A stretch of DNA of 64,000 bases from contig NZ_CACSIK010000003.1 of the NCBI RefSeq assembly GCF_902705875.1, positions 262,407 through 326,406 of the forward strand, in the 5' to 3' direction. How positions within the stretch are numbered: the stretch's first letter is position 1; each line of letters begins with the position of its first letter. The stretch comes from Zhongshania aliphaticivorans (GTDB taxonomy: Bacteria > Pseudomonadota > Gammaproteobacteria > Pseudomonadales > Spongiibacteraceae). Under the pieces are notes generated by a model that was given only the letters and a program-made list of their open reading frames with translations, was not told the origin of the DNA and ran no database searches. Shown here piece after piece: positions 667-27,711 of the stretch. The position numbers were made by a program, and so were the translations under genes.

Positions 667-3600
667 ATGCGCCATATTTTAGTTGTTGGCTGCTTAAGTG
701 CTTTATTATCAGCCTGTGGTGGTAGCGGTGGATCTTCAAACACCACGCCTCAAGATGATAATTCAAATTATGGCCCCGAGGCCACCGGTCAACTTATCGA
801 CTCACCAGTAAAGGGTATATTTTACTCCGTAGACCCAAGTCAAACAGCCAGTGCAAACCTGCCTCTGACTGACGCCCTAGGCAACTTCGAATACCTAGAA
901 GGGCAAACAATTTCGTTCTTTTTGGGCTCACTAAAGATTGGCTCTGCTATTGCTCAGCCAGCGATTACCCTAGATGACTTACTTGGCAGCGGCAACGCCA
1001 TAACAAATTTAGCGCGGGTTCTACTCACCCTAGATGAAGACAGTAACCCGGATAATGGCATTAGCCTTTCCCCTGCAGTCATCGACAAAACCCTTACGCT
1101 CAACATGACCTTGACTGACTTAGAGGTCGACCCCGCTAATTTTGAAGAAAGCGATGCCAGCGCATTTGCCCAAGCGGCCAATGAAGATAACCGCCCCTTA
1201 GTCACCGCCGCCGAAGCTGATGCTCACTTAGAAAAAACCCGAAAAGATCTGTCCGATGGTAGCTTTGATTTTGATGGCGGAGCTGACACAGATAACGATG
1301 GCGTGAACGACGCCGTCGATGCCTGCCCTTCTACTGAGGCCGGTTTAAGTGTTGACGCAGACGGCTGCGCCCTCGAAGAAGCAGAGCAAGATAGTGACGC
1401 CGACGGCATCAAAAATGGCAATGACAACTGCCCTGCTGATGCCAATGAGGACCAGCTAGACACCGACAATGATACTCGCGGTGACGCCTGTGATCTCGAC
1501 GACGACAACGATGGCCTCCTCGACAGCGATGAGATAGATAACGGCTCAAACCCTCTCCTTGCTGACTCCGATGCGGATGGCGTTGACGATGGTAATGATG
1601 CCTTTCCCACTGATAACACCGAAACCCAAGACAGCGATGGCGACAGCATTGGCAACAACGCCGACCAGGATGACGACAATGATGGTTTGAGCGACACCGA
1701 CGAACAAGCCCTAGGCACAGATCCACAACGCGCCGACAGCGACAGTGACGGCGTTTCAGATAGCCAAGACGCCTTCCCCACAGACCCGACTGAATCCGCT
1801 GATACCGATAGCGATGGTGTCGGCGATAATAGCGACGCGTTCCCCCAAGACCCCTCAGAAATAAAAGATAGTGACAGTGATGGTGTTGGCGATAACGCCG
1901 ATGCATTTCCTAACGACAGCACTGAAACTGTTGACACTGATGGCGACGGAACTGGCAACAATGCCGATCAAGATGACGACGGCGACGGTCTAAGTGATGC
2001 CGATGAGCAGACTGCAGGCACCGACCCACTGAATACTGACTCCGATAATGATGGTGTTTCTGACAGCCAAGATGCCTTCCCCACCGACCCTACTGAATCC
2101 TCTGATACCGATTCCGACGGTACTGGCGATAATAGCGATACATTTCCTGAAGACCCTTCTGAATCTAAAGATACCGACGCTGACGGCGTTGGCGACAATG
2201 CAGATGCATTCCCGAACGACAGCGGCGAAACAACCGACACTGACGGTGATGGAGTGGGTAACAACAGCGATGAAGACGACGATGGCGACGGCCTAAGTGA
2301 TACCGATGAGCAATCTAATGGTACCGACCCACTAAATACCGACTCGGATAATGACGGTGTTTCTGACAACCAAGACGCCTTCCCCAACAACGCTTCCGAA
2401 TCAGCAGACACCGATGGTGATGGTGTTGGCGACAACAGTGATGCATTCCCTGACGACAGCACTGAAACTACGGATTCAGATGGCGACGGAGTCGGTGATA
2501 ACGGCGATGCATTCCCCAGTGATAGCTCTGAGTCTGCCGATTCAGACGGCGACGGTGTGGGCGATAACGCCGACGCCTTCCCCAATGACAGCACTGAAAC
2601 TGCCGATTCAGATGGCGACGGTGTGGGCGATAACGCCGATGCCTTCCCTAACGACAGCTCCGAAACTGCTGACGCTGATGGCGACGGTATTGGCGACAAT
2701 GCCGATATTGACGACGATAACGATGGCGTACGTGATGATCTGTTTGTACTTGTAGAAGCCACCATGGCAGACGTGCACTCTGCCTTGGCTGGGGAGCTGG
2801 TCGACGAAGATGGCAACACATTAAGCTGTGTGGCGATCACTCAGCAGTATATTGATCGTATCCTTGCCTATAACGACAACCCTCAGCCAAACGGCGGCCT
2901 GCCTATCTTTGGTGTACTGGCCATTATGCCAAATGCCCTAGAGCAAGCAGCAGCTTTAGATGAACTATACGCAAACGATGGCGGCGTTGGAGAACGCTAC
3001 CTACACTGCATGCCGGTATTATTAAAGGACAACTATGACACCTTTGATTACCCATCAACACAAGGTTCCTACTCAATGCTGGGACATCAAGCTGGTGTTG
3101 ATGCCAATTCAGTAGATGGACTGCGTGAAGCCGGCGCCCTGATCCTAGGTAAAGCCAACCAAGATGAATTTGCTTTCTTTACAACGGGCTTTTCCGCCCG
3201 CGCGATTCAGGTTAGCAATCCGTACAACACCTCAGAAAGCCCAGCAGGTTCATCGTCTGGTACCGGCGCCTCTTTAGCGGCCAACTTTGCCCTAGGTGGC
3301 ACTGGTTCAGACACCTGTCAGTCAATTAGGCACCCGTCATCAGTTGGTGGCCTAGTCGGCATTAGACCCAGTCTTGGTGTGGTATCACAACACGGTATTT
3401 ATCCACTGGCGCACAGCCGAGATACCGGCGGGCCAATGACTCGCTCAGTAACCGACTCAGCCTTAATGCTCACCGCCATGGGTAAGTATGACGAGCGCGA
3501 CCCCAAGGCCGCCGCCTACCCTGCTGAGCAGCGCCCAGACAGTTACGCCCAATTCCTCGATCGCGAGCAATACGGCTTAGCTGGACGCGCTATTGGTGTG

Positions 3601-4479
3601 GTGCGTGATCTTGGCGGCAACACTGATGCCATGGGTACCGGAGCTCAGGGTGAACTCATTGCTGCCGCTGTAGCAAAAATGGAAGAATTAGGTGCAACGG
3701 TCTACGACGTCTACCTTCCTAACTACGCTTCACTTAGCGCAGGTTCAAGTCATTACGATATGAACGAATACTTTGCCGTCTTTGAGTCAGAAGGTGGCAC
3801 CAGTGCCCGCCGTTGTGTAAGTAGCACAGCTATTGCACTTGACGGCGTAGAATCCGCCCACGACCGCGACAATCAGTGCTACGGCATTGAAGGTATTGTT
3901 GAGACTGCACGTGTTGGTCCAAGAACAGCTGGGTTGTTCGCACTCACGGCACTGGGTGATGCCAACCAAGCACCAACCGACGCCCAGCTACAAGCGATTG
4001 TCGACATGCGTGCATATGTAACAGGAGAAATGGACGTTGTTAAAGACCTAAACGGTGAGCCCCTTATTGCGCCAAATGGCGGAACAGTAAGCGTTGATGC
4101 CCTTCTCTTTTCGCCCGGCCCCACCGGCGGCAGAACCTGTGATTTTGGCTCTACAACCCAAATGGGCTCCATTGTGGTACCCGTTGGATTTGACGATTCC
4201 GTTGGCGTTCCCCGCGGCATGGAAATCTTTGTTCGCCAGTTTGACGAAGGCACCGGCATTGGTATTGCTTACGATTACGAGCAAGCCACTAAACACCGTC
4301 AACCGCCAAACATCGTTCCCGCTATTGGCAGTGATAACGACACCATCAGCGAGTTCAATGCACGAGTAAAAGCGGCCATCGCCGCCTATGCTGCCTATCC
4401 GCCGGAAGACTTAGAACCCGAAGCGTATCGCGCAGCTTTAGAGGAATTACTTGGCCCACAAACGCAAGCACAGGAGTAA
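667..4479 (+). CDS. lipoprotein with thrombospondin type-3-like repeats fused to an amidase-signature domain
   Basis: This 1270-residue protein starts with a lipoprotein signal (lipobox LSAC, Cys at residue 17) followed by a Gly/Ser linker. Residues about 200-690 are a long array of Asp-rich calcium-binding repeats of the DxDxDGxxD thrombospondin type-3 kind. Residues about 695-1250 are an amidase-signature hydrolase domain. The expected catalytic residues are visible: Lys787 in VLLKDNY, the Ser-rich loop SPAGSSSGTG (Ser862-864) and the nucleophile Ser886 in GSDTCQSIR. The family hydrolyses amide bonds by a Ser-cisSer-Lys triad. The architecture suggests an enzyme displayed on a calcium-stiffened stalk from the outer membrane. 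In the usual GSDTGGSIR motif the residues before Ser886 are GG; here they are CQ, so activity and substrate are uncertain. It stands alone, with a hairpin just downstream. Confidence 0.88.
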   Translation: MRHILVVGCLSALLSACGGSGGSSNTTPQDDNSNYGPEATGQLIDSPVKGIFYSVDPSQTASANLPLTDALGNFEYLEGQTISFFLGSLKIGSAIAQPAITLDDLLGSGNAITNLARVLLTLDEDSNPDNGISLSPAVIDKTLTLNMTLTDLEVDPANFEESDASAFAQAANEDNRPLVTAAEADAHLEKTRKDLSDGSFDFDGGADTDNDGVNDAVDACPSTEAGLSVDADGCALEEAEQDSDADGIKNGNDNCPADANEDQLDTDNDTRGDACDLDDDNDGLLDSDEIDNGSNPLLADSDADGVDDGNDAFPTDNTETQDSDGDSIGNNADQDDDNDGLSDTDEQALGTDPQRADSDSDGVSDSQDAFPTDPTESADTDSDGVGDNSDAFPQDPSEIKDSDSDGVGDNADAFPNDSTETVDTDGDGTGNNADQDDDGDGLSDADEQTAGTDPLNTDSDNDGVSDSQDAFPTDPTESSDTDSDGTGDNSDTFPEDPSESKDTDADGVGDNADAFPNDSGETTDTDGDGVGNNSDEDDDGDGLSDTDEQSNGTDPLNTDSDNDGVSDNQDAFPNNASESADTDGDGVGDNSDAFPDDSTETTDSDGDGVGDNGDAFPSDSSESADSDGDGVGDNADAFPNDSTETADSDGDGVGDNADAFPNDSSETADADGDGIGDNADIDDDNDGVRDDLFVLVEATMADVHSALAGELVDEDGNTLSCVAITQQYIDRILAYNDNPQPNGGLPIFGVLAIMPNALEQAAALDELYANDGGVGERYLHCMPVLLKDNYDTFDYPSTQGSYSMLGHQAGVDANSVDGLREAGALILGKANQDEFAFFTTGFSARAIQVSNPYNTSESPAGSSSGTGASLAANFALGGTGSDTCQSIRHPSSVGGLVGIRPSLGVVSQHGIYPLAHSRDTGGPMTRSVTDSALMLTAMGKYDERDPKAAAYPAEQRPDSYAQFLDREQYGLAGRAIGVVRDLGGNTDAMGTGAQGELIAAAVAKMEELGATVYDVYLPNYASLSAGSSHYDMNEYFAVFESEGGTSARRCVSSTAIALDGVESAHDRDNQCYGIEGIVETARVGPRTAGLFALTALGDANQAPTDAQLQAIVDMRAYVTGEMDVVKDLNGEPLIAPNGGTVSVDALLFSPGPTGGRTCDFGSTTQMGSIVVPVGFDDSVGVPRGMEIFVRQFDEGTGIGIAYDYEQATKHRQPPNIVPAIGSDNDTISEFNARVKAAIAAYAAYPPEDLEPEAYRAALEELLGPQTQAQE

Positions 4480-4709: not shown

Positions 4710-7472
4710 CTAAAGTAGATTATTTTTTCGCGCGTAAGCAACAGCAGAGGTTCTGTTGCGCACACCTAATTTTTCAAAAATATTATGAACATGCCATTTG
4801 GCGGTCGACAAACTTATATGCAGCGCTTCAGCCAATTCTTTATTCCCTAGGCCGCCGCCAATCAGCCTTAAAATTTCCAATTGGCGGTCGGTCAGAGGTT
4901 CGGCCAGTACTGCATTCTGTACTTGTTCTTCACCAAAAGAGACCTCACTTTCTGGTGCTAGGCCGCCATTAAATAAGGCGATTAATTGTATCTCACATTG
5001 ATATTGCACAGCCTGGGCTTGATCAGAGCTCGTTGATATCGATGAGGCATGGAGCCGTTGTAATATCGCCAACAAGCCCGAACCCACACGATAGATAGGG
5101 TATATATGTGATTCTGGCGCGGCATGATTAACAACCTTGGCCAATTCTCGTACTGCTTCGGCCTCTTTACCCACACGCCATAAGGCAAGAGATTTCATTG
5201 CACATAACTGTTGCGTTAGAGCGATGCGTTGCTGTTGTTGCGCCACTTTTATCAACGGGCTTAATTGCCGCAAAGTTTCGCTGGCTTTATTCTCCGCAAG
5301 GGAGAGCCTTGCCTCACTTAGATCAATACACAACAAAACCGCGGATCGATTTTGCTTATCAATAAAACGATGCTGACGATTTAACATATCTGTTCGCCTG
5401 ACAGTTTCTCGCGCAGCCTGAATATCACCCTTATGTAATAGCAGCTCAATTTCCTCGGCAATAAAGGCAAAATACAATCGCGGCATATCCATGGTGACCG
5501 CCATATCTTGGCTCTGTCGCAGCAGCGCTAGCGCAGCATCTAGCTCACCGGCCCAAACCAAGTAACGCGCCTCAGCACAGCGCGCAACCAGTAAAGGTTC
5601 TGGAGAGCTGGAAATCCTAGAAATCACTCTATTATCATTCAAGCTGCGCTCAATACGCGTAAAATCACAGCGCTGGCAATCCACTTCAACCTTAGCCAAC
5701 GCCGCCAATGCGGCCATTTGCCCACCATCCATCGCATCGGCAACCGAGAGTGCAGCACGTGCCGCACTGTCCTCTGCGGCTTGAATATGGCCTAGCTCGG
5801 CATTTGCCATACTGGCAACAAAATCCCCCCAAATAGCCGCGTAGGCACTTCCTCCTCGACGCCCGTATACAAAGGCATCGGTTGCCGAGCTAAGCGCCGA
5901 GGCCAGATCCTTATTCAAATAATGCGCATAAGCATTGGCAACCGCCGCCGAGGCAATCAAAGCCGTCTCTGTTTTCGGCAGCTCTGTGAGTAAGGCCTTA
6001 GAGCGGCCAATGCAAATATCTAGTTCCTCAATGCAGGCCGACGCTATGCAGCGAATGACACTGCACAAACCCGCTAACGACTGAACCTCTTGTTCCGTTA
6101 GTACCCAGTAATTCGCCTCAGATTTGTCGAGTAAGGCTGTAAACTCATCGCATATCGCTACCGCAACACCAACACCATCCCGAGTAAAAACCCGCGACCA
6201 AGCATGGTGTAACATGATTTCTGGACGACGATACTGGTACTCCTTGGGGAGCTTTCTCATCCACTCAAAAACAATTGAATGATTGCCCTCACCAATCGCC
6301 ACTGTTTGAGCATGATCGGCAATTAAGTCTGTGGCTTTTTCGTAATCAGCTGCATCTAAGCAATATTGTATTGCCTCAAGGACATAGCCTTCGGCAATAC
6401 ACCAGTCGGCGGCGAGAGCACAAACCGTTTTATTAACGCCAGGCTCTAATCTTTGCAATTGGTTTTCAAGATACTCAGAAAACAGGTGGTGATAGCGATA
6501 CCAGCGCCCTTCTCTATCTAAAGGAATTATGAATAAATTTGCCGCCTCTAGCTGGGCAAGCCTATCTTCACCATCAACCGTCGCGGTCACAACATCGCAC
6601 AATTCCGCGCAAAAACGATTAAGCGGTGCGGTGTGCAATAAAAAATGGCGAGTAGCTTCGTCTTGCAAGCCGTACACGGATTCAAATAAATATTCTTTTA
6701 AATTTCGGTCTCGGGCAGAAAAACTGCGAACAATGTCTTCTTTATTTTGACTGGAATTACTCATCGTCATGCCAGCAAGTTGCAGCCCCACCATCCAACC
6801 TTCTGTTCGGTCATGGAGTAATTGCAAAACAGCCGCGGGCAACTCAACATTATGCAGCTCTTTCATAAACTGCCCGGTTTCTTGCATACTCAGATTTAGA
6901 TCTACCTGACCGAGCTCAACGAGCCCGCCGGCTAATTTTAATCGACTTAAATCCAGAGAAACTTTAAACCTTGAGGCAATCACCGCTCGGCAGCTCGCCG
7001 ACATATAGCTAATATAGCGTGTCCAAAATTGCAAAATAACTGGATTTTCTATGGCATGAAAATCATCGACGAAGAGGGCAAAACGCCGGTCTGTCGCAGC
7101 GAGATACTGAATAATAGAATCAAAAAATGGGCTTAAATCAGTCGCCGAGCTAGACCGTAAAACAGCAAGACGTTGCTCTGCAAACCCTTTATCAATAGCG
7201 GCAATGGCCGCCACAATATAACGTGCAAAACGCCGAGGATCATCATCACCCGGTTCAAGGCTCAACCAACTACAGGCATAGCCCTCTAGCCGGTATCGCT
7301 CATAGAGCTCAACTAACAGTGTCGATTTACCCGACCCCGCCGGCGCAACAACGGTAACCAAACGCACCGCATCATCGAGCACTTGGTTAACCCTTGAAAC
7401 TATCGTGGCTCGACTCATTCGCTTATGACGAATATAGGGCGGGCTCAACTTTGTTTCGATAATATCTGTCAA
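4710..7472 (-). CDS. MalT-like LuxR-family transcriptional regulator with ATPase domain
   Basis: This 920-residue regulator has the MalT/STAND layout. The N-terminal NTPase carries a Walker A motif APAGSGKS (Lys49) and a Walker B-like FALFVDDFH. A long helical repeat sensor region fills the middle. A LuxR-type DNA-binding domain occupies about residues 858-920 (LTDRQLEILRLI, then the recognition helix SLSTAKWHVHNIF). The chosen start is TTG at 7472, five bases after GAGGT. Proteins of this type activate catabolic promoters after binding an inducer and ATP. It is divergent from the styrene oxide isomerase-like/aldehyde dehydrogenase pair, which it probably controls. A second regulator of the same architecture lies at 22805-25528. 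Confidence 0.9.
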   Translation of the reverse strand: MTDIIETKLSPPYIRHKRMSRATIVSRVNQVLDDAVRLVTVVAPAGSGKSTLLVELYERYRLEGYACSWLSLEPGDDDPRRFARYIVAAIAAIDKGFAEQRLAVLRSSSATDLSPFFDSIIQYLAATDRRFALFVDDFHAIENPVILQFWTRYISYMSASCRAVIASRFKVSLDLSRLKLAGGLVELGQVDLNLSMQETGQFMKELHNVELPAAVLQLLHDRTEGWMVGLQLAGMTMSNSSQNKEDIVRSFSARDRNLKEYLFESVYGLQDEATRHFLLHTAPLNRFCAELCDVVTATVDGEDRLAQLEAANLFIIPLDREGRWYRYHHLFSEYLENQLQRLEPGVNKTVCALAADWCIAEGYVLEAIQYCLDAADYEKATDLIADHAQTVAIGEGNHSIVFEWMRKLPKEYQYRRPEIMLHHAWSRVFTRDGVGVAVAICDEFTALLDKSEANYWVLTEQEVQSLAGLCSVIRCIASACIEELDICIGRSKALLTELPKTETALIASAAVANAYAHYLNKDLASALSSATDAFVYGRRGGSAYAAIWGDFVASMANAELGHIQAAEDSAARAALSVADAMDGGQMAALAALAKVEVDCQRCDFTRIERSLNDNRVISRISSSPEPLLVARCAEARYLVWAGELDAALALLRQSQDMAVTMDMPRLYFAFIAEEIELLLHKGDIQAARETVRRTDMLNRQHRFIDKQNRSAVLLCIDLSEARLSLAENKASETLRQLSPLIKVAQQQQRIALTQQLCAMKSLALWRVGKEAEAVRELAKVVNHAAPESHIYPIYRVGSGLLAILQRLHASSISTSSDQAQAVQYQCEIQLIALFNGGLAPESEVSFGEEQVQNAVLAEPLTDRQLEILRLIGGGLGNKELAEALHISLSTAKWHVHNIFEKLGVRNRTSAVAYARKNNLL

Positions 7473-7690: not shown

Positions 7691-8179
7691 ATGCGAGCGT
7701 ACTACTCCAATAGATTAATTAAACATGGCCTAGCAGCGATGCTAGTCGGGCTCTTTGGCGGCTTTCTGCTAGGCTTTTCGATGGTAGGTGGTATGTCACT
7801 AAGCCCAGTACCCGTATTTTTCCAGTTCGAACTCCCCGGCTCCAATGCCGGTTGGCGAATTCTGCACGTAGGCACACTCATGAACGGCATCATGGCACTG
7901 GCTATTGGCCTTGTTATGCGTACGGTTTACTTAACCGACGGTCGCTCACGCTCAATATTCATCTGCTTTGCACTCGCTATTTGGGGAAACTTTAGCTTTT
8001 ATCTATTCGGCATGTTTGCCCCCAATCACGGCTTGAGTATTGAAGCCAACCGACTTGGCGAAGCCAGTATCGCCGGTGCATTGGCCTATATTCCCGCCAT
8101 CCTCGCAGCCGTAGTGTCTATTTGGGCCGTGTTTGTCATGTTGTTTGCTGAACCCACCTACGAATCCGCAAACAACTAG
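7691..8179 (+). CDS. styrene oxide isomerase-like (StyC-type) integral membrane protein
   Basis: This is a 162-residue, four-helix membrane protein; the start follows AGAGGACAAGG. It aligns along its length with styrene oxide isomerase StyC as I recall that sequence. Shared features are VGG near residue 32, ELPGS..GW (48-55), H59-x5-N65-G, and WGN..FYLF..F.PN.GL (98-115). In StyC, His58, Asn64 and Tyr103 are the haem-ligand and active-site residues. The equivalents His59, Asn65 and Tyr104 are all present. StyC converts an epoxide to an aldehyde (Meinwald rearrangement) in the inner membrane. The next gene, 42 bp downstream, is an aldehyde dehydrogenase, mirroring the StyC-StyD order. The substrate is unknown, and automated annotation would probably call this hypothetical. 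A divergent paralogue lies at 27217-27711. Confidence 0.75.
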   Translation: MRAYYSNRLIKHGLAAMLVGLFGGFLLGFSMVGGMSLSPVPVFFQFELPGSNAGWRILHVGTLMNGIMALAIGLVMRTVYLTDGRSRSIFICFALAIWGNFSFYLFGMFAPNHGLSIEANRLGEASIAGALAYIPAILAAVVSIWAVFVMLFAEPTYESANN

Positions 8180-8221
8180 CTCAACGCCAACAATACTAAC
8201 TTATCTATACGTGAGATTATT

Positions 8222-9667
8222 ATGACGAGTGCACAACAATACGTCGATATAGCCCCTGATGACACGGCATTTTCAGCGGTTTTTAATGCGCAAAAATCCG
8301 CATTTAACGCCAGCAAATACCCCGATTACGCGAGTCGCCACAACAAACTTAAAGCCTTAGAAAACCTACTGCTCGACAATCGTGACGCCATTATTGCCGC
8401 CCTACACGAAGACTTTGGCCACCGCAGCGCCGACGAAACACGTATTGCCGAAATTAGCAGCACGGTGGCGCATATTCGCTACGCACGAAAAAATCTTGCC
8501 AAATGGATGCGCCCCCAACGGCGCGCTACCTCTATCTGGTTTTTACCCGGCAGCAACCATATTCAAGCCCAGCCAGCCGGCGTGATCGGCATTATGGCGC
8601 CATGGAATTACCCAATTAACCTGGCTGTTGCGCCCTTAACCTCGGCACTGGCCGCGGGTAATCGGGCAATGATTAAAATGTCGGAGTACACCCCAGCGTC
8701 AACAAAGGTACTCAAAACCATTCTGGCTAAAGAGTTTGATGAATCCGAAATCGCGGTATTTGGCGGCGAAGCTGAATCCTCTGCTCAGTTTTCTAAACTC
8801 CCCTTCGATCACCTAATGTTTACCGGATCAATCGCGGTTGGCAAAAAAGTCATGGCTGCAGCCGCGCCAAACCTCACCCCACTAACGCTTGAACTAGGTG
8901 GCAAGAGTCCAGTTATTATCAATAAAGACTACCCCATGGAAGAGGCTGCCAGCAGAATCACCTTCGGTAAAATAGTCAATGCTGGGCAAACCTGTGTCGC
9001 CCCAGACTATATATTACTACCCAAAGGTAAAGCTGAAGATTTTGCCATGTGGATGAGCCGAAAATACGCAGACAGACTCCCTGAAGGCGCTTGTTCACAA
9101 GATTACACATCCATTATTGATCAGCGTAATTACAATCGTCTCATCGCCATTTTGGATGACGCCATCAGCAAAGGTGCCACGGTTATTCCTTTAGAACAAA
9201 ACAGCACATCCAGCCAAGAGAAACGTAAATTCCCCCTCACTCTTGTTATCAACCCAAGTAGCGACTGCAGAATTATGCAGGAAGAAATTTTTGGCCCGCT
9301 GCTGCCGGTTATTGAAACTGACGGCCTTGATGACGCAATTGCCCGTATCAACGCGGGTGGCCGCCCCCTTGCACTGTATTACTTCGGCCACGCTCCCGCA
9401 GAACAAGAAAAATTATTGCGCCAAACTCACTCCGGCGGTGTAACCGTTAACGATGTATTGCTGCAGTTTTTACAACCTTCGCAACCCTTTGGTGGCACTG
9501 GCAGCAGTGGCTTTGGCAGCTGCCACGGCTGGGAGGGGTTTCGCTCCTTCTCCCACATGAAACCAGTATTCACCCAGAAAGGCATAGGCGGATTTACCGG
9601 CTTAAAACTACTCTACCCGCCCTATGGCCCCTTAGCCCGGCGGTTAATTACTATGATGGGAGGATAA
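8222..9667 (+). CDS. aldehyde dehydrogenase (coniferyl-aldehyde dehydrogenase-like)
   Basis: This 481-residue NAD(P)-dependent aldehyde dehydrogenase has the catalytic cysteine Cys258 in NAGQTCVAPDY and the general base Glu224 in LELGGKSP. The cofactor region is GVIGIMAPWNYP, and EIFGPLLPV lies near the C-terminal side. Its length and the C-terminal PFGGTGSSGFGSCHGWEGF segment fit the class-3/coniferyl aldehyde dehydrogenase branch. It oxidises an aldehyde to a carboxylic acid in the cytoplasm. It lies 42 bp after the styrene oxide isomerase-like gene and is probably co-transcribed. The pair would turn an epoxide into an acid ready for CoA activation, as StyC-StyD do in styrene degradation. 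Substrate identity is inference. Confidence 0.92.
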   Translation: MTSAQQYVDIAPDDTAFSAVFNAQKSAFNASKYPDYASRHNKLKALENLLLDNRDAIIAALHEDFGHRSADETRIAEISSTVAHIRYARKNLAKWMRPQRRATSIWFLPGSNHIQAQPAGVIGIMAPWNYPINLAVAPLTSALAAGNRAMIKMSEYTPASTKVLKTILAKEFDESEIAVFGGEAESSAQFSKLPFDHLMFTGSIAVGKKVMAAAAPNLTPLTLELGGKSPVIINKDYPMEEAASRITFGKIVNAGQTCVAPDYILLPKGKAEDFAMWMSRKYADRLPEGACSQDYTSIIDQRNYNRLIAILDDAISKGATVIPLEQNSTSSQEKRKFPLTLVINPSSDCRIMQEEIFGPLLPVIETDGLDDAIARINAGGRPLALYYFGHAPAEQEKLLRQTHSGGVTVNDVLLQFLQPSQPFGGTGSSGFGSCHGWEGFRSFSHMKPVFTQKGIGGFTGLKLLYPPYGPLARRLITMMGG

Positions 9668-9800: not shown

Positions 9801-12311
9801 ATGTTCATAAAAAAAAGACCCACTATCCCTTTAATTTCAGTCATTGCCGCTTTACTAAGCGCAGCTAATATCGCGCATTCAAAGCAATTAGAAGAAGTGA
9901 TTGTTACTGCCCAAAAAACCTCGGCAAGTACGCAAGACACCCCCATTGCCATAACCGGCATGACCGCTGATTCACTTGAAAAATTTGGCTTTCAAAATGC
10001 CAATGACATTTCAGCCCAAGTTCCTAATATGCAGGTCAGCGGCCCCTACGGCGATGTTCAACCCATTTTTGCTATTCGCGGCGTCAGCATGTCTGACTAC
10101 AGCTCAAATCAAGCCAGCCCGATTGGCGTTTACACCGACGAAATGTATATGGGTGCCACCTATACCCACGGCATGAACTTTTTTGACGTAGAACGCCTAG
10201 AAGTTCTACGTGGCCCGCAGGGTACCTTATACGGTAAAAACACCACTGGCGGTGCAGTGAACATTATTACTAACACGGCCAATGTTGGTGATGAATTTGG
10301 TTTTAATTTAAAGACAGGGGTCGGAAATTACGGTGCCACCACTGGCGAATTTGGCGTTGAAGACACCATCATAGACGATGTATTAGCGCTAAGACTGGGT
10401 TATTCATCGTCCCGCAATGATGGCTATGTTGAAAATGCACTGGGTGGCCCAAACCTTTCCCAGCTAGACTTTCAAGGTGCACGCCTTTCACTTGAATGGC
10501 TACCTAGTGACGCAACCACCGTTACATTTAAATACACCAACAGCGGCAATGATTCACGCGCCAATGCTTCACGCAACGAACCTCGCGGCAACCTCGACAA
10601 TGACCCCATTACAGTAGCCGCATTAGAAACAGCTGGGGTGGGCGTTTACAACAATCCTGATAATGGCTATATCGATAACACCGGCTACTCCCGCCCGGCC
10701 AACAATCTTGACCGGCACGAAGTCCAAGACGACTACACCGGCGCCTTAATTGTCGATAATGAACAGGGTATTTTACGCATAGACCATATTACCGATAATT
10801 ACACTTTCACCAGCACCACCAGTTATAGCGAAGCCGATTATAGCCAGAAACAAAATACCGACGGTGGCCCCGATGGTTTACTACACATTCGCTGGGCAGT
10901 AGAAACCGACGCCTTCAGTCAAGACTTTAGGGTTGCCGGCGATTTTGGTGGTCCCGTCAGTTTTATTGCCGGGCTTTACTACGCGACTGAATTCCAAGAT
11001 ATGCATAATATCTATGAAATTTATGAGACGGCTCCCGACCTTCGCGTTGCCGTCACCTTTCCTGGCGCTGCCGCGTTTTATCCCTTCTTATTAGACTTTG
11101 GTGGCGTCGACCAAAAAATGATTACTGACAAAACGAGCTATGCCGCCTATTCACAATTTCGCTTTGACGCCACGGATCAGCTCGGTTTTGATTTTGGCTT
11201 GCGCTACACCGTTGATGAAGTCGATCTTGAATATTTAAACGTATCCCGACTAAATTATGACGGCGACCCCATTGGCACTTGGGTGCCCGGCAATACCAGT
11301 GGTTCGGATGAGCCCTTTATCGCACCGAGTATTGGTGGCAGCGGCCCACTGGAACTCGCCCAGTTATTAGGTAACATTTTGAATGGCAGCGTAGGAGTAA
11401 GCGACCTCGTCCCATCTGGACAGCTTGTCGGCTATACCCACGGCCCTTACACCACAGATTCAGCAACCCAGCAGGCGGCCAAAGAACAAGAGATAACCGG
11501 GAAGTTAGGCGTAGATTACGCCGTGAACAGTGACCTGATGGTTTACGCCAGCTTCAGTAAAGGCTACCGCGCAGGCAATTTTAATGGCGGCGTATACTAC
11601 GAAGAGCGTGATTTCGAAAATGCTTATGCAGAACCAGAATTCATCGACGCCTATGAGCTAGGTTTTAAATCTGACCTGCTCGACGGCTCGGCACGCCTTA
11701 ATGCCGCCCTGTTTTATTATGACTACACCAATCAGCAGTTTATCAATGTCGTCGGTGTTTCTAATTTTCTAGAAAATGCAGGTGGCTCGACCATACTGGG
11801 CGCTGAGGCAGAATTTACTATGGCGCTCTCTGATCGGCTCATGCTCAACCTTGGTATAGGCTTGCTAAAAACAGAGTACACAGAGCTTGAGCTTTCGGAC
11901 ACCCGCACCTTAAACAACCCCGATGACACCGTTGACCTTTCTGGTAATGAACTGATTTCTGCACCACAAATCAGCGGCAACATCTCCTTAGACTACGATG
12001 TATTAAGATTAGAAAGTGGCGACCTCATCTTAAATGTCAACGCTAACTATCAAAGCAAACAGTGGTATAGCGCCTATAATGACGACGCGAGTTACGAACA
12101 CATCAAGCAAGACCCCTACGCCCTTATTAATACCCGCCTAAGCTGGCACGTCAGTGACGACAGTTATTCACTGTCGCTATGGGCCAAGAACTTAATGGAC
12201 GAAGAATACGATGGCTACGCCATTAATCTTCAGGCGGGTTTTGGCTTTGATTATTTTCAACAAGGACCACCAAGAACCTACGGGCTAGAATTTACCTACC
12301 GCTATCAATAA
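9801..12311 (+). CDS. TonB-dependent outer-membrane receptor (copy 1)
   Basis: This 836-residue outer-membrane transporter has a signal peptide (about residues 1-27) and a TonB box EEVIVTAQ at 31-38. A plug domain carries VERLEVLRGPQGTLYGKN and TTGGAVNI, and a C-terminal beta-barrel follows. AAGGCG precedes the start. Such receptors bring scarce or bulky substrates across the outer membrane using TonB/ExbB/ExbD energy. It is strikingly similar to the protein at 17416-19917 along the whole length, for example QPIFAIRGVSMSDYSSNQA and the barrel segment FYYDYTNQQFINVVGVS. The catabolic neighbours suggest a hydrophobic organic substrate rather than a siderophore. Confidence 0.95.
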   Translation: MFIKKRPTIPLISVIAALLSAANIAHSKQLEEVIVTAQKTSASTQDTPIAITGMTADSLEKFGFQNANDISAQVPNMQVSGPYGDVQPIFAIRGVSMSDYSSNQASPIGVYTDEMYMGATYTHGMNFFDVERLEVLRGPQGTLYGKNTTGGAVNIITNTANVGDEFGFNLKTGVGNYGATTGEFGVEDTIIDDVLALRLGYSSSRNDGYVENALGGPNLSQLDFQGARLSLEWLPSDATTVTFKYTNSGNDSRANASRNEPRGNLDNDPITVAALETAGVGVYNNPDNGYIDNTGYSRPANNLDRHEVQDDYTGALIVDNEQGILRIDHITDNYTFTSTTSYSEADYSQKQNTDGGPDGLLHIRWAVETDAFSQDFRVAGDFGGPVSFIAGLYYATEFQDMHNIYEIYETAPDLRVAVTFPGAAAFYPFLLDFGGVDQKMITDKTSYAAYSQFRFDATDQLGFDFGLRYTVDEVDLEYLNVSRLNYDGDPIGTWVPGNTSGSDEPFIAPSIGGSGPLELAQLLGNILNGSVGVSDLVPSGQLVGYTHGPYTTDSATQQAAKEQEITGKLGVDYAVNSDLMVYASFSKGYRAGNFNGGVYYEERDFENAYAEPEFIDAYELGFKSDLLDGSARLNAALFYYDYTNQQFINVVGVSNFLENAGGSTILGAEAEFTMALSDRLMLNLGIGLLKTEYTELELSDTRTLNNPDDTVDLSGNELISAPQISGNISLDYDVLRLESGDLILNVNANYQSKQWYSAYNDDASYEHIKQDPYALINTRLSWHVSDDSYSLSLWAKNLMDEEYDGYAINLQAGFGFDYFQQGPPRTYGLEFTYRYQ

Positions 12312-12383: not shown

Positions 12384-12445
12384 AAACAACGCCGTTGACG
12401 CGCGCCGACCAACCATCGCAACACTCACTAATGCAGGTGATTTTT

Positions 12446-13369
12446 ATGAAAGACAAAGGCGAATTTCAAAGTGATGCACATCCCATGGACAAGTTTCCGG
12501 TTAGAAAACTTGAATTCAATTTTGACGACATCCAACTAAAAGATCCTTTGTGGAGTCAATCCAATCGTGACTTCTCTATGGTCATTAATGCACTAGGCGT
12601 TCACGTACCTCACTTTGAACGCTATCTGGTTAAAACCATGATAGAAGCCAAGTCAAAAGTGAGCGATGAAAAATTAAAAAAAGATATGTCTGCCATTACC
12701 GGACAGGAAGCGCATCACGCAAAAAACTTCCTTCACTACAACAAATGGTTGGCGAAACGTTATCCCAAAATTGCCACTTTAGAAAACAAGGCGCGAGACT
12801 TTTTTGTTTCGCACGGGAAGCAGGATTCACTTAAGCGGAAAGTAGGTTATACCGCTGGCTATGAAACTTTTACCTTTCTCGCCGGGCTTATTGTTTTAGA
12901 AAACTATGATCGCTGGATGAAACGCAGCGACCCCGTCATGAAAGCACTTTGGGTTTGGCACCAAGTTGAAGAAATTGAACACGGGGCAGTCGCCTTTGAA
13001 GTTTATAAAGATTTATACGGTGATGACGAGTGGTATCGAAAGTGGATGGTACTGGCCGCGCTGGTTCATATCGCAGGCGAAACACTAAAGTGCTACACAA
13101 CCATGACCGTTGTAGAAGGCTATTGGCGAAATCCGTTTCGTGGCATTAAAAAAATGGGCTTTTGCGTGTATATGTTATGCCGCTTTTTATACAACGCCTT
13201 ACCCGTATTCAAAAAAGACTACCACCCGCGTAATCATAAACTAGTAACCGGTAAAAAGAATGCGATTCAAATTGCCTGGCGCCGGTTTGAACATGAAGGC
13301 GGCGATGTGCTCTCTATCGACCATGACAAAATGGCCAGAATTATGGGTATAGCAAAACCTTCACACTAA
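12446..13369 (+). CDS. ferritin-like 'predicted metal-dependent hydrolase' family protein (COG3687/PF10118), putative di-iron protein
   Basis: This 307-residue protein starts at ATG 12446, preceded by AGGTGA at good spacing; an in-frame TTG at 12395 is a weaker alternative. Homologues are usually labelled predicted metal-dependent hydrolases. The sequence shows the four-helix di-iron carboxylate pattern: Glu58 (FERYL), Glu88-x2-His91 (GQEAHH), Glu140 (GYETF) and Glu176-x2-His179 (EEIEH). That arrangement is typical of ferritin-like oxidases and oxygenases. A ferredoxin gene follows 73 bp downstream, which suggests the protein needs electrons and supports a redox role rather than hydrolysis. 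A paralogue lies at 26336-27205 with all six residues conserved. The family assignment is firm; the oxygenase role is inference. Confidence 0.85.
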   Translation: MKDKGEFQSDAHPMDKFPVRKLEFNFDDIQLKDPLWSQSNRDFSMVINALGVHVPHFERYLVKTMIEAKSKVSDEKLKKDMSAITGQEAHHAKNFLHYNKWLAKRYPKIATLENKARDFFVSHGKQDSLKRKVGYTAGYETFTFLAGLIVLENYDRWMKRSDPVMKALWVWHQVEEIEHGAVAFEVYKDLYGDDEWYRKWMVLAALVHIAGETLKCYTTMTVVEGYWRNPFRGIKKMGFCVYMLCRFLYNALPVFKKDYHPRNHKLVTGKKNAIQIAWRRFEHEGGDVLSIDHDKMARIMGIAKPSH

Positions 13370-13442: not shown

Positions 13443-13760
13443 ATGAGTAATAGCATTGAATTTACATTTATCGATAGCAATGGAGATCCGCACACTGTCA
13501 GTGCCACCTCTGGCGAAACCTTAATGAGTATTGCAACGAATAACAATATCAGAGGGATCGACGGGGATTGTGGCGGCTGCTGTGCCTGTGGTACTTGCCG
13601 GATTCATCTAGATTCAACGCTGACACACATTTCTAGCCCAGAACAAGATGAACTCGATATTATTGAATTTGCCGGTGATGACTCAGGTACACAACGCCTA
13701 GGCTGCCAAATACAAATTGACGAGGCCTTCGCCGGTAAAACGATTAAGGTGGCACAATAG
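13443..13760 (+). CDS. [2Fe-2S] ferredoxin, putidaredoxin type
   Basis: This complete 105-residue adrenodoxin/putidaredoxin-type ferredoxin has cluster ligands in DCGGCCACGTC (C-x5-C-x2-C) and a fourth Cys near the C-terminus in RLGCQIQ. There is an extra Cys within the loop, as in the ferredoxin at the left edge. AGGAAAA precedes the ATG. It carries single electrons to an oxygenase in the cytoplasm. No cytochrome P450 or ferredoxin reductase is present in the window. The nearest candidate acceptor is the ferritin-like protein encoded immediately upstream on the same strand, and a reductase must be supplied from elsewhere. Confidence 0.95.
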   Translation: MSNSIEFTFIDSNGDPHTVSATSGETLMSIATNNNIRGIDGDCGGCCACGTCRIHLDSTLTHISSPEQDELDIIEFAGDDSGTQRLGCQIQIDEAFAGKTIKVAQ

Positions 13761-13859: not shown

Positions 13860-14867
13860 TCATTCTGCCATTTTTTGGCGGAATTGCATTGGGGTAAGCC
13901 CAAACCAGCGCTTACAAGAACGATTAAACGTACTTTGTTCAGCGTAACCCAGTAAGCCTGTTATTTGGTTCAAGCGTAAATCGACTTGGGCCAAATAGCG
14001 CTCCGCTTGGCTGCGGCGTTCCTTATCTAATAATAGATCATAGCGTGTTGACTCTTCGGCTAATCGTCGCTGCAAGGTACGGGGGTGCATCGCTAAATGT
14101 TCGGAGATAGCATTGGCATTACACTGTCCCGTTGGCAGTAAGCGACGTATTAATTCTGCGACACGCTCGGATAACCTTGCCGCTCCGAGCATATATTGCG
14201 GCTCTAAATACTCAGCTACCAGATGACGGGTTTCGGCATCCGCAGAATCAATACTCTGAAGCGCAAGCTCTTCGGTCAACTCAAACCCACACCAGGACTG
14301 CTCAAAGTAGACGGGGCAAGAAAAAATTTCACGATATACCGACGACGCAGCTTGTTGCTTATGCGTGAATCGAACAGACGTAAATGTCGATTGATGGCCG
14401 GCCAATAAACGAAGTATGCCTAAACCATTTGCCAAGCTCAGCTCGTAAGACTGACACTGCTGGGGGCGAATAGCTTCTAGGATTTCGTACTGAAACCGAA
14501 GCACACCCTTAGTTTCAGCGGCTGCAGCTTTTAATTTCAACGCTGGGCTATGAAGGTAAAGAAATTGTGAAATCGCCCCTAGCGCCTCTAATACCGTACT
14601 GGCACTTCTGGCAATGACGGCAACCGGGCCAAGAATATCCAAGCCCTGCCATTTTGCTAATCGCAGCCCAAAGTCTGGGCAGTTAAGCTCACGCGCACTT
14701 GCTTCTAACAGAAGCCCAGCATTTCTATAAGCTAAAAAGGCATGATCATCTTCCGTTACATCAACGGGTATTTTGAACCGCGTCAATAACTTAGCGGGAT
14801 CACCACCCAGCATTTCGACTAACTCATGGTAGCCCCGAAGGTTACTGGCCCTGATTAAACTTCCCAT
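13860..14867 (-). CDS. AraC-family transcriptional regulator (OruR/ArgR-like)
   Basis: This 335-residue protein has an N-terminal ligand-binding domain of the Arabinose_bd (PF12625) kind, including FLAYRNAGLLLEASARELN. A C-terminal AraC DNA-binding domain follows: HPRTLQRRLAEES is the first helix-turn-helix, and LLGYAEQSTFNRSCKRWFG the second. Regulators of this subgroup often control lipid, steroid or amino acid catabolism. It is divergent from the flavin monooxygenase at 15054. The 186-bp intergenic region contains a 7-bp direct repeat at 21-bp spacing, the geometry used by AraC-type activators, so this regulator probably controls the monooxygenase. Confidence 0.92.
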   Translation of the reverse strand: MGSLIRASNLRGYHELVEMLGGDPAKLLTRFKIPVDVTEDDHAFLAYRNAGLLLEASARELNCPDFGLRLAKWQGLDILGPVAVIARSASTVLEALGAISQFLYLHSPALKLKAAAAETKGVLRFQYEILEAIRPQQCQSYELSLANGLGILRLLAGHQSTFTSVRFTHKQQAASSVYREIFSCPVYFEQSWCGFELTEELALQSIDSADAETRHLVAEYLEPQYMLGAARLSERVAELIRRLLPTGQCNANAISEHLAMHPRTLQRRLAEESTRYDLLLDKERRSQAERYLAQVDLRLNQITGLLGYAEQSTFNRSCKRWFGLTPMQFRQKMAE

Positions 14868-15053: not shown

Positions 15054-16547
15054 ATGAATAAGAGCAATCACTTTGATGTTTTAATTATTGGCGCGGGCCT
15101 ATCAGGCATTGGCACAGCCTGCCACATTGCCGATGAATGCCCAAACAAAAGCTTGGCTATTATAGAGCGTCGCGAAACATTGGGTGGCACTTGGGATTTA
15201 TTTCGTTACCCCGGCATACGTTCAGACTCCGACATGCTCAGCTTTGGCTATAAATTCCGTCCTTGGAACGAGCTAAATACCCTCGCCGACGGCAGCGCCA
15301 TTCGCAATTACATCTCCGATACCGCAGAGGAGTATCGCGTTCGGGATAAAATCCATTTTGGACTCAAAGTGATCGCCGCAGACTGGTCAACGAATGACGG
15401 CCAATGGTTATTAACCACACAACACGAGGCCAGTGGCGAGACTCGTGAATACACCTGTTCTTATCTTATTAGCTGTACCGGCTACTACAATCACGACACG
15501 GCATTTCGCCCCGACTTCCCCGGTGAAGAACGATTTAAAGGTATAACCATACACCCACAACAATGGCCTGAAAATCTCGACTACAGCAACAAACGCGTTG
15601 TCGTCATTGGCAGCGGTGCAACAGCCGTAACCCTTATCCCAGCCATGGCTGATGAGACTGCCCACATCACTATGTTACAGCGCTCGCCATCTTATATTTT
15701 TTCCCTACCGGGTTACGACAAAATGACGGAGGTGCTCAGTAAATTAATGCCTAAAAATTGGGCTTATGGCATAGCACGCAAACGCAATATTTTCTTTCAA
15801 CGCGCCCTATACCTCGCCTGTCGTCGCTGGCCAAAAGCGATGAAAAAAGTATTACTGTCACAAGTAAGAAAACACCTTGGCCCAGATATTGATATGCGCC
15901 ATTTCACACCAAATTATATGCCCTGGGACGAACGCCTGTGCGCAGTTCCCGACGCCAATTTATTCAAGGTGTTACGTGAAGGTAAGGCAAGTATCGAGAC
16001 CGACCACATTGAAACATTTACCGAAAAAGGCATTCTGCTAAAGTCGGGCAAAGAGCTTGAAGCTGATATCATCATTACCGCAACAGGTTTAAATTTGCAG
16101 ATGCTCGGCGGCTTAAAGATGTCGGTAGATCAACAGCCACGACCACTAGAAGGGCAGCTGACATACAAGAGCATACTTGTCGAAAACATACCCAATATGG
16201 CTTGGATTTTTGGTTATGTAAATGCACCCTGGACTCTGAAATCAGAAATCTCCGGCAAGTATCTCTGCCGTCTTTTCAAATATATGGAACAGAATGACGT
16301 TAACGTGGTTGTTCCTCAAGACCGAGACAATTGCGCACTAGACGACGGCATCATGGATTCATTACAAGCCGGTTATGTGCAAAGAGGAAAATACAGCCTT
16401 CCACGTCAAGGTAGCAAACTTCCTTGGCAGGTATTAATGCATTATGGCCGCGATAAGAAAATGCTGCTAGATGAACCTATCAACAACAGTGCTTTGACAT
16501 TTAGCAAAGCGACAAAGAACAGGGTAACAACAAAGGCCGCAGCTTGA
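15054..16547 (+). CDS. flavin-containing monooxygenase, Baeyer-Villiger type
   Basis: This 497-residue class B flavoprotein monooxygenase starts after AGGGA. It has an N-terminal FAD-binding motif GAGLSG (13-18) and the Baeyer-Villiger fingerprint FxGxxxHxxxWP, seen exactly as FKGITIHPQQWP (161-172). A second nucleotide-binding motif GSGATA (186-191) serves NADPH. The family inserts oxygen next to a ketone to form an ester or lactone, or oxidises heteroatoms, in the cytoplasm. It is transcribed away from the AraC-type regulator and ends with a hairpin, so it is probably a single-gene unit. The window also carries alpha/beta hydrolase and beta-oxidation genes that could process a product. The actual substrate is unknown. 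Confidence 0.93.
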   Translation: MNKSNHFDVLIIGAGLSGIGTACHIADECPNKSLAIIERRETLGGTWDLFRYPGIRSDSDMLSFGYKFRPWNELNTLADGSAIRNYISDTAEEYRVRDKIHFGLKVIAADWSTNDGQWLLTTQHEASGETREYTCSYLISCTGYYNHDTAFRPDFPGEERFKGITIHPQQWPENLDYSNKRVVVIGSGATAVTLIPAMADETAHITMLQRSPSYIFSLPGYDKMTEVLSKLMPKNWAYGIARKRNIFFQRALYLACRRWPKAMKKVLLSQVRKHLGPDIDMRHFTPNYMPWDERLCAVPDANLFKVLREGKASIETDHIETFTEKGILLKSGKELEADIIITATGLNLQMLGGLKMSVDQQPRPLEGQLTYKSILVENIPNMAWIFGYVNAPWTLKSEISGKYLCRLFKYMEQNDVNVVVPQDRDNCALDDGIMDSLQAGYVQRGKYSLPRQGSKLPWQVLMHYGRDKKMLLDEPINNSALTFSKATKNRVTTKAAA

Positions 16548-26335: not shown

Positions 26336-27205
26336 ATGCCAGAGCATCACACTAGTGAACGCACTTTAGTAGTAAGACGAATGCCCTTTGTTTTTAACGA
26401 CGACATTGATGCGCAATGGAATCGCGCCAAGCCAGAGTGGAGCTATATGGTCAACGGTGCGTCACTGGCCATGCCTTATTTAGAACCCTACCTTATACGC
26501 ACCATGAAGAAAGCGCTTCCTAAGCTCAAGGACCCAGCACTTATTCAAGAAGTAAAAGACTATATTGGCCAAGAGGCGCAGCACTATCAGCAGCACAGAA
26601 AATTCAACGATTTAATAAAATCGAAAGGCTACCAAGAACTTAATGCCCTAGAGGAGCAAATGCTCAAAGAATATAGCGCGCTAGAAAAACACCAAAGCCT
26701 GCGCTTCAACCTTGCCTATGCAGCGGGTTTTGAATCAATGGCGTTAGCGGTGGGTCACTGGCTAATAAAACATCGTGAGTCTCTTTTTGGCGGCTCCGAC
26801 CCACACGTTGCCTCCTTGATCCTCTGGCATTTTGTTGAAGAAATAGAACACAAATGCGCAGCCTACGATGCATATCAAGCCGCCTATGGAAGTTACTGGC
26901 ATCGCGTTTACGGTACTTTTTTCGCCGCACTACACGTGATGAAATTTAGCCGACGTGGATATATCATTATGATGAAAAAAGACGGCGGTTGGCGGAAAAT
27001 AGGACAACGCCTAAACATCATAAAATACAATCTCTGCTTTTTATTTGGCACAGCTCCTAAGCTGCTTCACTCATTATTACCCTGGCATCACCCTAGCGAT
27101 ATAAAAGATCCCCAATGGAGTGTTGACTGGATTCATGCTCACAAAAATAACAGCGAAAATTTAGCTTACCTAGACACCAACAATTTAATAAATCCAATAG
27201 TATAA
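26336..27205 (+). CDS. ferritin-like 'predicted metal-dependent hydrolase' family protein (COG3687/PF10118), second copy
   Basis: This 289-residue paralogue of the protein at 12446-13369 starts at ATG 26336 after GAGG. The putative di-iron ligands are again present: Glu50 (YLEPYL), Glu80-x2-His83 (GQEAQH), Glu133 (GFESM) and Glu169-x2-His172 (EEIEH). The family has no proven biochemical role that I can name, and 'hydrolase' is a prediction. The four-helix Glu / Glu-x2-His pattern points to a di-iron centre. It is followed 11 bp later by a StyC-like membrane protein and is surely co-transcribed with it. That supports a functional link between the two families, for example epoxidation followed by isomerisation (inference). 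Confidence 0.87.
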   Translation: MPEHHTSERTLVVRRMPFVFNDDIDAQWNRAKPEWSYMVNGASLAMPYLEPYLIRTMKKALPKLKDPALIQEVKDYIGQEAQHYQQHRKFNDLIKSKGYQELNALEEQMLKEYSALEKHQSLRFNLAYAAGFESMALAVGHWLIKHRESLFGGSDPHVASLILWHFVEEIEHKCAAYDAYQAAYGSYWHRVYGTFFAALHVMKFSRRGYIIMMKKDGGWRKIGQRLNIIKYNLCFLFGTAPKLLHSLLPWHHPSDIKDPQWSVDWIHAHKNNSENLAYLDTNNLINPIV

Positions 27206-27216
27206 GGACAGAAGAA

Positions 27217-27711
27217 ATGAACGAAGAAATACTAAAGTATCAACGCATATTAGTGATTAACGGCACCCTAATATTACTCATCGGCTTTATTATTGGTTTT
27301 GGATTTTTATTCTTTATTACCGGTGAAATAAGTCTATTCCCTATTCCCGGCAAGATCGAATACCAAGTACCCGGAACCTATGATGCTTGGCGCATGGCTC
27401 ATATGGAATGTATTGTTAATGGCTTAATGCTCTGGCTAATTGCAGCACTGCTTCCGGTATTTTTAACTTTTGTTAAAAGTATACGATGGCTAACAATAAC
27501 ACCGCTGATTATTTCTTGGACCATCATTATTGCATCTGCGATCGACCCTCTATTTGAAAATGCACGGGGCCTAATATTTGACGAGAATTCCAATTTAATG
27601 AATGCCCTTGCGTTCTTCCTTTTTTACCCCGGCGTAACACTGAGTTTTGTATTTGCTATCGGGATCTTACTGGCCGCTTGGAAGTATTCTAAAAATCACC
27701 AACAGGTATAG
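27217..27711 (+). CDS. styrene oxide isomerase-related membrane protein, divergent paralogue
   Basis: This is a 164-residue, four-helix membrane protein; AAGGA precedes the ATG. It is related to the StyC-like protein at 7691-8179. Shared features are a G-rich first helix, F/SPIP, the QVPGTYDAW segment (50-58) and H62-x5-N68-G, matching the His and Asn active-site positions of StyC. The WGN..FYLF motif is degenerated (WTIIIASAI), so the active-site Tyr is not conserved. It may therefore catalyse a different reaction or act as a haem-binding or structural partner. It shares an operon with the ferritin-like gene upstream and is followed by a hairpin. Confidence 0.6.
   Translation: MNEEILKYQRILVINGTLILLIGFIIGFGFLFFITGEISLFPIPGKIEYQVPGTYDAWRMAHMECIVNGLMLWLIAALLPVFLTFVKSIRWLTITPLIISWTIIIASAIDPLFENARGLIFDENSNLMNALAFFLFYPGVTLSFVFAIGILLAAWKYSKNHQQV

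Follow-up and report, generated by a model that had tools for sequence, protein, structure and literature searches.

An SOI-family protein and its PF10118 neighbour

Within a 64,000-nucleotide stretch of the Zhongshania aliphaticivorans genome (contig NZ_CACSIK010000003.1, positions 262,407 to 326,406; hereafter the window), a gene at 7691..8179 on the forward strand, with an ATG start, encodes a 162-residue membrane protein of the styrene oxide isomerase (SOI) family, which we call SOI_w. A gene for a protein of Pfam family PF10118 lies 4.2 kb downstream (12446..13369, forward strand), and the window holds a second such pair, in which PF10118_w2 (26336..27205, forward strand) is followed after 11 bp by SOI_w2 (27217..27711, forward strand, 164 residues).

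A preliminary description, made from the DNA sequence without database searches, had proposed an SOI-like protein at the first site, to be checked by profile search against SOI homologues and by structure prediction, and both came out in its favour. SOI_w matches the NCBIfam StyC model NF045734 with an E-value of 8e-29 and 100.6 bits, below the curated cut-off of 150 bits, and the sequences of solved SOIs in the PDB at 1.2e-19 (30tw) and 4.9e-19 (8pnu). A homologue search returned 82 proteins, all of them carrying the precomputed Pfam label PF26512; an 82%-identical Zhongshania relative is named styrene-oxide isomerase in UniRef, so that the earlier term "unannotated" holds only in part. The AlphaFold2 monomer, a haem-free model (pLDDT 82), consists of four long helices and superposes best on 8pnu among PDB entries (TM score 0.82/0.85, root-mean-square deviation 2.1, E 5.6e-10). 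Pfam DUF389, to which there was a weak match (16.5 bits against a cut-off of 23.9), was rejected as an identity.

His59, Asn65, Asn100 and Tyr104 of SOI_w, equivalent to StyC His58, Asn64, Asn99 and Tyr103, are each present in 32/32 aligned proteins, one row of the alignment being the true StyC of the same genome. Three of these residues (His59, Asn65 and Tyr104) had already been pointed out, with StyC numbers that agree with those in PMC11374702. The ferric haem b of SOI sits on His58, mutants of Asn99 and Tyr103 are dead and those of Asn64 and Asp95 impaired (PMC11374702). The Asp95 position is occupied by Ala96 in SOI_w (Ala in 30/32 proteins) and that of Arg112, which contacts a haem propionate, by His113 (His in 28/32). 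In another SOI, an Asp-to-Ala variant was still active in whole cells, while an Arg variant retained haem and had several-fold lower activity in membranes (PMC12502698).

That SOI_w belongs to the SOI fold family is thus borne out by its profile match, its predicted fold and its key residues. It resembles StyC (NF045734; PDB 8pnu/8pnv and 30tw) in fold, in its four helices and in the His58, Asn64, Asn99 and Tyr103 equivalents, but because it scores under the NCBIfam cut-off and differs at the Asp95 (Ala) and Arg112 (His) positions, we place it, on sequence grounds, in a separate SOI subfamily from which StyC is excluded. It also differs in its PF10118 partner and in that no StyA was found. The two substitutions, the PF10118 partner and the second SOI-family gene at 27217-27711 had escaped the preliminary description.

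The PF10118 protein at 12446..13369 has 307 residues from its ATG, in a frame open from a TTG at 12395, and matches PF10118 at 151.8 bits (gathering score 33.2). The name "metal-dependent hydrolase" that comes with this match clashes with an invariant motif of diiron type, and the protein may well be a diiron oxygenase. Its putative metal ligands are E58, E88xxH91, E140 and E176xxH179, and PF10118_w2 (193.1 bits) has the same motif; both window proteins thus lie far over the Pfam cut-off for "Metal_hydrol". The E-ExxH-E-ExxH pattern of diiron oxygenases was present in 90/90 PF10118 proteins of at least 240 residues, with column counts consistent with the invariant columns of a separate PF10118 alignment. 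The same pattern is spread over four helices in ferritin-like diiron oxygenases (CmlI, MMOH, stearoyl-ACP desaturase, R2lox), whose fold the predicted one may resemble, yet sequence identity is only ~10% and the PF10118 alignment found no convincing match among PDB sequences (best E 0.013).

Pairing and co-variation of the two families

SOI and PF10118 genes are paired across genomes. When genome contigs were scanned, 23 SOI loci turned up, from Zhongshania, Spongiibacter, Neomelitea, Nevskia, Stenotrophobium, Hydrocarboniphaga, Algiphilus, Zavarzinia and others, and PF10118 was present in 17 of them. The remaining six (L021, L025, L026, L037, L039 and L040, as fetched genomic loci are labelled here) include two short contigs, L021 and L039, and L037 probably has a PF10118 gene that was seen at a distance of 9.9 kb from SOI, at the limit of the fetched sequence. 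Around 25 distinct window-type loci (copies removed), PF10118 of the linked subfamily was found within 6 kb in 22, a MalT relative near 11, a ferredoxin near nine and an aldehyde dehydrogenase (ALDH) near nine. Longest-frame starts give a 4-bp overlap of the paired genes in L018, L019, L104 and L138. In L029 and L036 the pair adjoins an mfd-like gene, followed in L029 by a gene with domains that we take to be RadA-like. The neighbours scanned in L029, L036, L038, L104 and L107, a part of the total, gave no clue to a substrate.

In the fetched loci all 27 strong PF10118 genes are linked to SOI, a figure that is biased because most such loci were fetched through SOI. A fairer test starts from a PF10118 profile, run over 341 genomes of the order (the same genome draw as in an earlier SOI-side scan): 11 genes in eight genomes scored >390 bits, three of them counted from the genome studied here, and an SOI gene lay within 5 kb of 11/11. 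With that profile and E up to 1e-60, 369 genomes of the class and 398 of the phylum yielded five genes in three genomes besides our own; SOI was directly adjacent to three of these and 9.9 kb from a fourth, and there was none within 8 kb on either side of the fifth. Of 50 PF10118 genes used as controls, 40 with a full 5 kb of flank on either side, none had an SOI gene within 5 kb. These controls come from L045-L092, with seven of 69 listed rows not fetched, one more fetched in part, and open reading frames (ORFs) under 240 residues left uncounted. L041-L044 were excluded from the controls, having been fetched for an SOI match: PF10118 lies beside SOI in L041 and L043 and 7.6 kb away in L042, and L044 has none.

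Most SOI-linked PF10118 proteins (27/38) form a subfamily of their own, scoring at least 394 bits with a subfamily hidden Markov model against at most 143 bits for the controls; the other 11, PF10118_w2 included, are closer to ordinary PF10118. Among the neighbours of the control genes within 5 kb we observed a gene resembling Baeyer-Villiger monooxygenases (BVMO) in 11/50 cases and a short-chain dehydrogenase/reductase (SDR) gene in 17/50, which hints at possible hydroxylase or oxygenase functions in the wider family. A literature search, with most subscription papers and preprints outside its reach, found no paper linking PF10118 with SOI.

The genome itself (3.98 Mb) holds seven SOI-family genes, namely one true StyC, three of the window type including SOI_w, SOI_w2 and two more divergent ones, together with five PF10118 genes. 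A PF10118 gene lies within 5 kb of four of the seven (chance ~1e-6 by a simple binomial). Three paralogous clusters combine a MalT regulator, SOI, a class-3-type ALDH, PF10118 and a ferredoxin, and the two outside the window also have a CoA ligase.

For a tree of the SOI family, 80 ORFs were reduced to 75 by removal of copies and to 69 by dropping six fragments or oversized ORFs. The haem-ligand His is present in 69/69 of these proteins, and 36/69 have PF10118 within 5 kb. Subtypes are denoted by the residues at His58, Asn64, Asp95, Asn99 and Tyr103. The StyC clade (nine rows, six HNDNY) is paired with PF10118 in 0/9 cases. All 26 rows of the window clade read HNANY. Five rows make up an HNTNY clade, all of them paired, as are the five rows of the SOI_w2 clade (HNII[SA] or HGVFS). 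SOI_w2 retains His62 and Asn68 and is without equivalents of Asn99 and Tyr103. Two of the six rows that resemble a second SOI copy in L013 (H[QH]xFA) are paired, and the last six rows are mixed. A single-gene type, HNGNP, in which the His is kept and the Tyr lost, was also observed in 12 rows (L016:6116-6568; L121-L128; L130-L132), in genus and order, with PF10118 within 5 kb in 0/12.

The two families also co-vary: over 36 pairs, SOI and PF10118 distances correlate with r 0.917, a value reached in 0/5000 permutations and to which host-genome relatedness contributes. In a nearest-kin test on genomes with at least two pairs, agreement was exact in 10/17 cases, and in the other seven the mismatch is confined to close Zhongshania-type copies that share a subtype.

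A possible alkene-to-aldehyde module and its alternatives

The simplest reading, and the one we favour at about even odds, is that a PF10118 oxygenase makes an epoxide, which a haem-containing SOI-family protein other than StyC isomerises to an aldehyde. In the window, the PF10118 protein would act as a ferritin-like diiron oxygenase, taking electrons from the adjacent 2Fe-2S ferredoxin, a putative donor identified by profile match (13443..13760, forward strand), and epoxidising a hydrophobic compound at an alkene bond. The ferric haem of SOI_w, held by His59, would then bind the epoxide oxygen, with Tyr104, Asn65 and Asn100 positioning the substrate, and the protein would rearrange the epoxide to an aldehyde. 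This might be oxidised to an acid by the class-3 ALDH of the cluster, and the CoA ligase of the two sister clusters would feed the product into beta-oxidation. What the analysis establishes is the family, fold and key residues of SOI_w, the conserved pairing with its co-variation, and the metal-ligand pattern; the scheme predicts that haem and iron are bound, that an epoxide is formed and isomerised, and what the substrate and the order of steps would be. A substrate other than styrene oxide, as proposed in the preliminary description, is plausible, since the genome gave no StyA match and has its true StyC in a separate cluster at another site. The functional pair of SOI and a StyD-like ALDH implied there is unsupported, because the ALDH is of class 3 and lies near only 9/25 loci, as against 22/25 for PF10118.

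With somewhat less than even confidence, we extend this to PF10118 as a class of ferritin-like diiron monooxygenases, whose SOI-linked branches would epoxidise alkenes and would have evolved hand in hand with membrane haem isomerases, the two genes forming a two-step alkene-to-aldehyde module. If true, the enzymatic Meinwald rearrangement reaches beyond styrene, a Pfam family labelled hydrolase gains a testable oxygenase function, and a compact oxygenase-isomerase pair is at hand for making aldehydes from alkenes.

It is also conceivable, if rather unlikely, that SOI_w is an epoxide isomerase fed by another oxygenase, with PF10118 acting elsewhere in the pathway, for example as a hydroxylase or desaturase. 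One such oxygenase is at hand, a flavin monooxygenase-like (FMO) protein encoded within the cluster (15054..16547, forward strand; profile match), and the BVMO-like and SDR neighbours of the control PF10118 genes are those that hydroxylases might have. At the 25 distinct SOI_w loci, however, the neighbours counted within 6 kb include no FMO relative but do include PF10118 at 22 loci, and L029 and L036 are without a further oxygenase among the seven neighbours scanned.

Slightly less probable still is a role of the SOI-family protein as a membrane haem b redox partner or anchor, delivering electrons or substrate to PF10118, with no isomerase activity. Several observations weigh here against the epoxide-isomerising scheme: the haem His is kept in all 69 SOI-family proteins of the tree, yet the Tyr103 equivalent is lost in 8/36 paired proteins, SOI_w2 included, and neither L029 nor L036 showed a relative of the ferredoxin. 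The Tyr-less paired proteins could act on other substrates or as haem redox partners of PF10118, and because of these eight a redox role retains some probability for SOI-family proteins; dithionite can, moreover, reduce SOI haem (PMC11374702). The window clade, on the other hand, has the His, both Asn residues and the Tyr in 26/26 rows, which would be needless for a pure electron carrier, and a ferredoxin is present in other clusters.

We consider it improbable that PF10118 is a dioxygenase or peroxygenase and that the haem protein rearranges a peroxide instead of an epoxide. Ferritin-like diiron enzymes and haem proteins are both generally known to be able to handle peroxides, and the active sites of paired SOI relatives are diverse, but the Tyr/Asn pocket that positions the epoxide oxygen in SOI is kept in SOI_w. 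An ordinary SOI acting on aryl epoxides, of which SOIs accept several (PMC11374702), in a strain that does carry a StyC-type cluster, with the PF10118 linkage reflecting mere clustering of catabolic genes, is very improbable in view of the pair beside an mfd-like gene outside any catabolic cluster in L029 and L036, the 4-bp gene overlap in four loci, and the complete linkage of strong matches seen from the PF10118 side.

Accessory genes and the StyC cluster of the same genome

The ALDH gene (8222..9667, forward strand, 481 residues) starts 42 bp past the SOI_w stop, the spacing given in the preliminary description, and is here regarded as accessory. Its description as StyD-like did not hold: StyD identity was rejected, since the protein widely misses the cut-offs of the two NCBIfam StyD models (139.7 and 136.3 bits, against 800 and 850), falls outside the StyD clade and has class-3 ALDHs as its best solved relatives, with 9nxl (steroid aldehyde dehydrogenase), 4qgk and 5ucd matching nearly its whole length at 334, 284 and 267 bits. 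The MdlD model gave 334.7 bits. Between the ALDH and PF10118 genes, a library scan identified a TonB-dependent receptor (9801..12311, forward strand), putatively for substrate uptake; a similar receptor is encoded on the opposite strand at 17416-19917, and relatives recur in several SOI loci. By profile match, a MalT-type LuxR regulator (4710..7472, reverse strand) diverges from the SOI_w gene, and an AraC-type regulator (13860..14867, reverse strand) lies downstream of the ferredoxin gene.

The StyC cluster of the same genome (L013) is like the window cluster type in grouping an SOI-family gene with genes for an ALDH and a CoA ligase. It differs in having a true StyC (250.6 bits), a StyD-like ALDH (668.7 bits with a StyD model, cut-off 800), a PaaK over its cut-off, and no PF10118 gene over the 20 kb that were fetched. 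The StyA domain PF17885 had no match in this genome, in line with the earlier remark that StyA is missing, while StyB was not searched for; the same search family matched in 4/185 genomes of the class. A flavin adenine dinucleotide (FAD)-type protein with no NCBIfam match was observed within ~12 kb of StyC in five of nine StyC-clade loci (L013, L099/L100, L101, L102/L103 and L116; own-genome coordinates listed for this observation are L013:3361-4770 and L013:11545-12039) and is a candidate replacement epoxidase where StyA was not found.

Adjoining the StyC cluster and some SOI_w clusters is a trio of genes, presumably for an MMPL transporter, a DUF1329 protein and a YCF48-like protein (L013:14706-19788, L014:1300-6266, L020:100-5063, L035:3700-8620), which perhaps serves hydrophobic substrates. 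Elsewhere in the window, a 1270-residue ORF at 667-4479 has long Asp-rich repeats followed by what looks by eye like an amidase domain.
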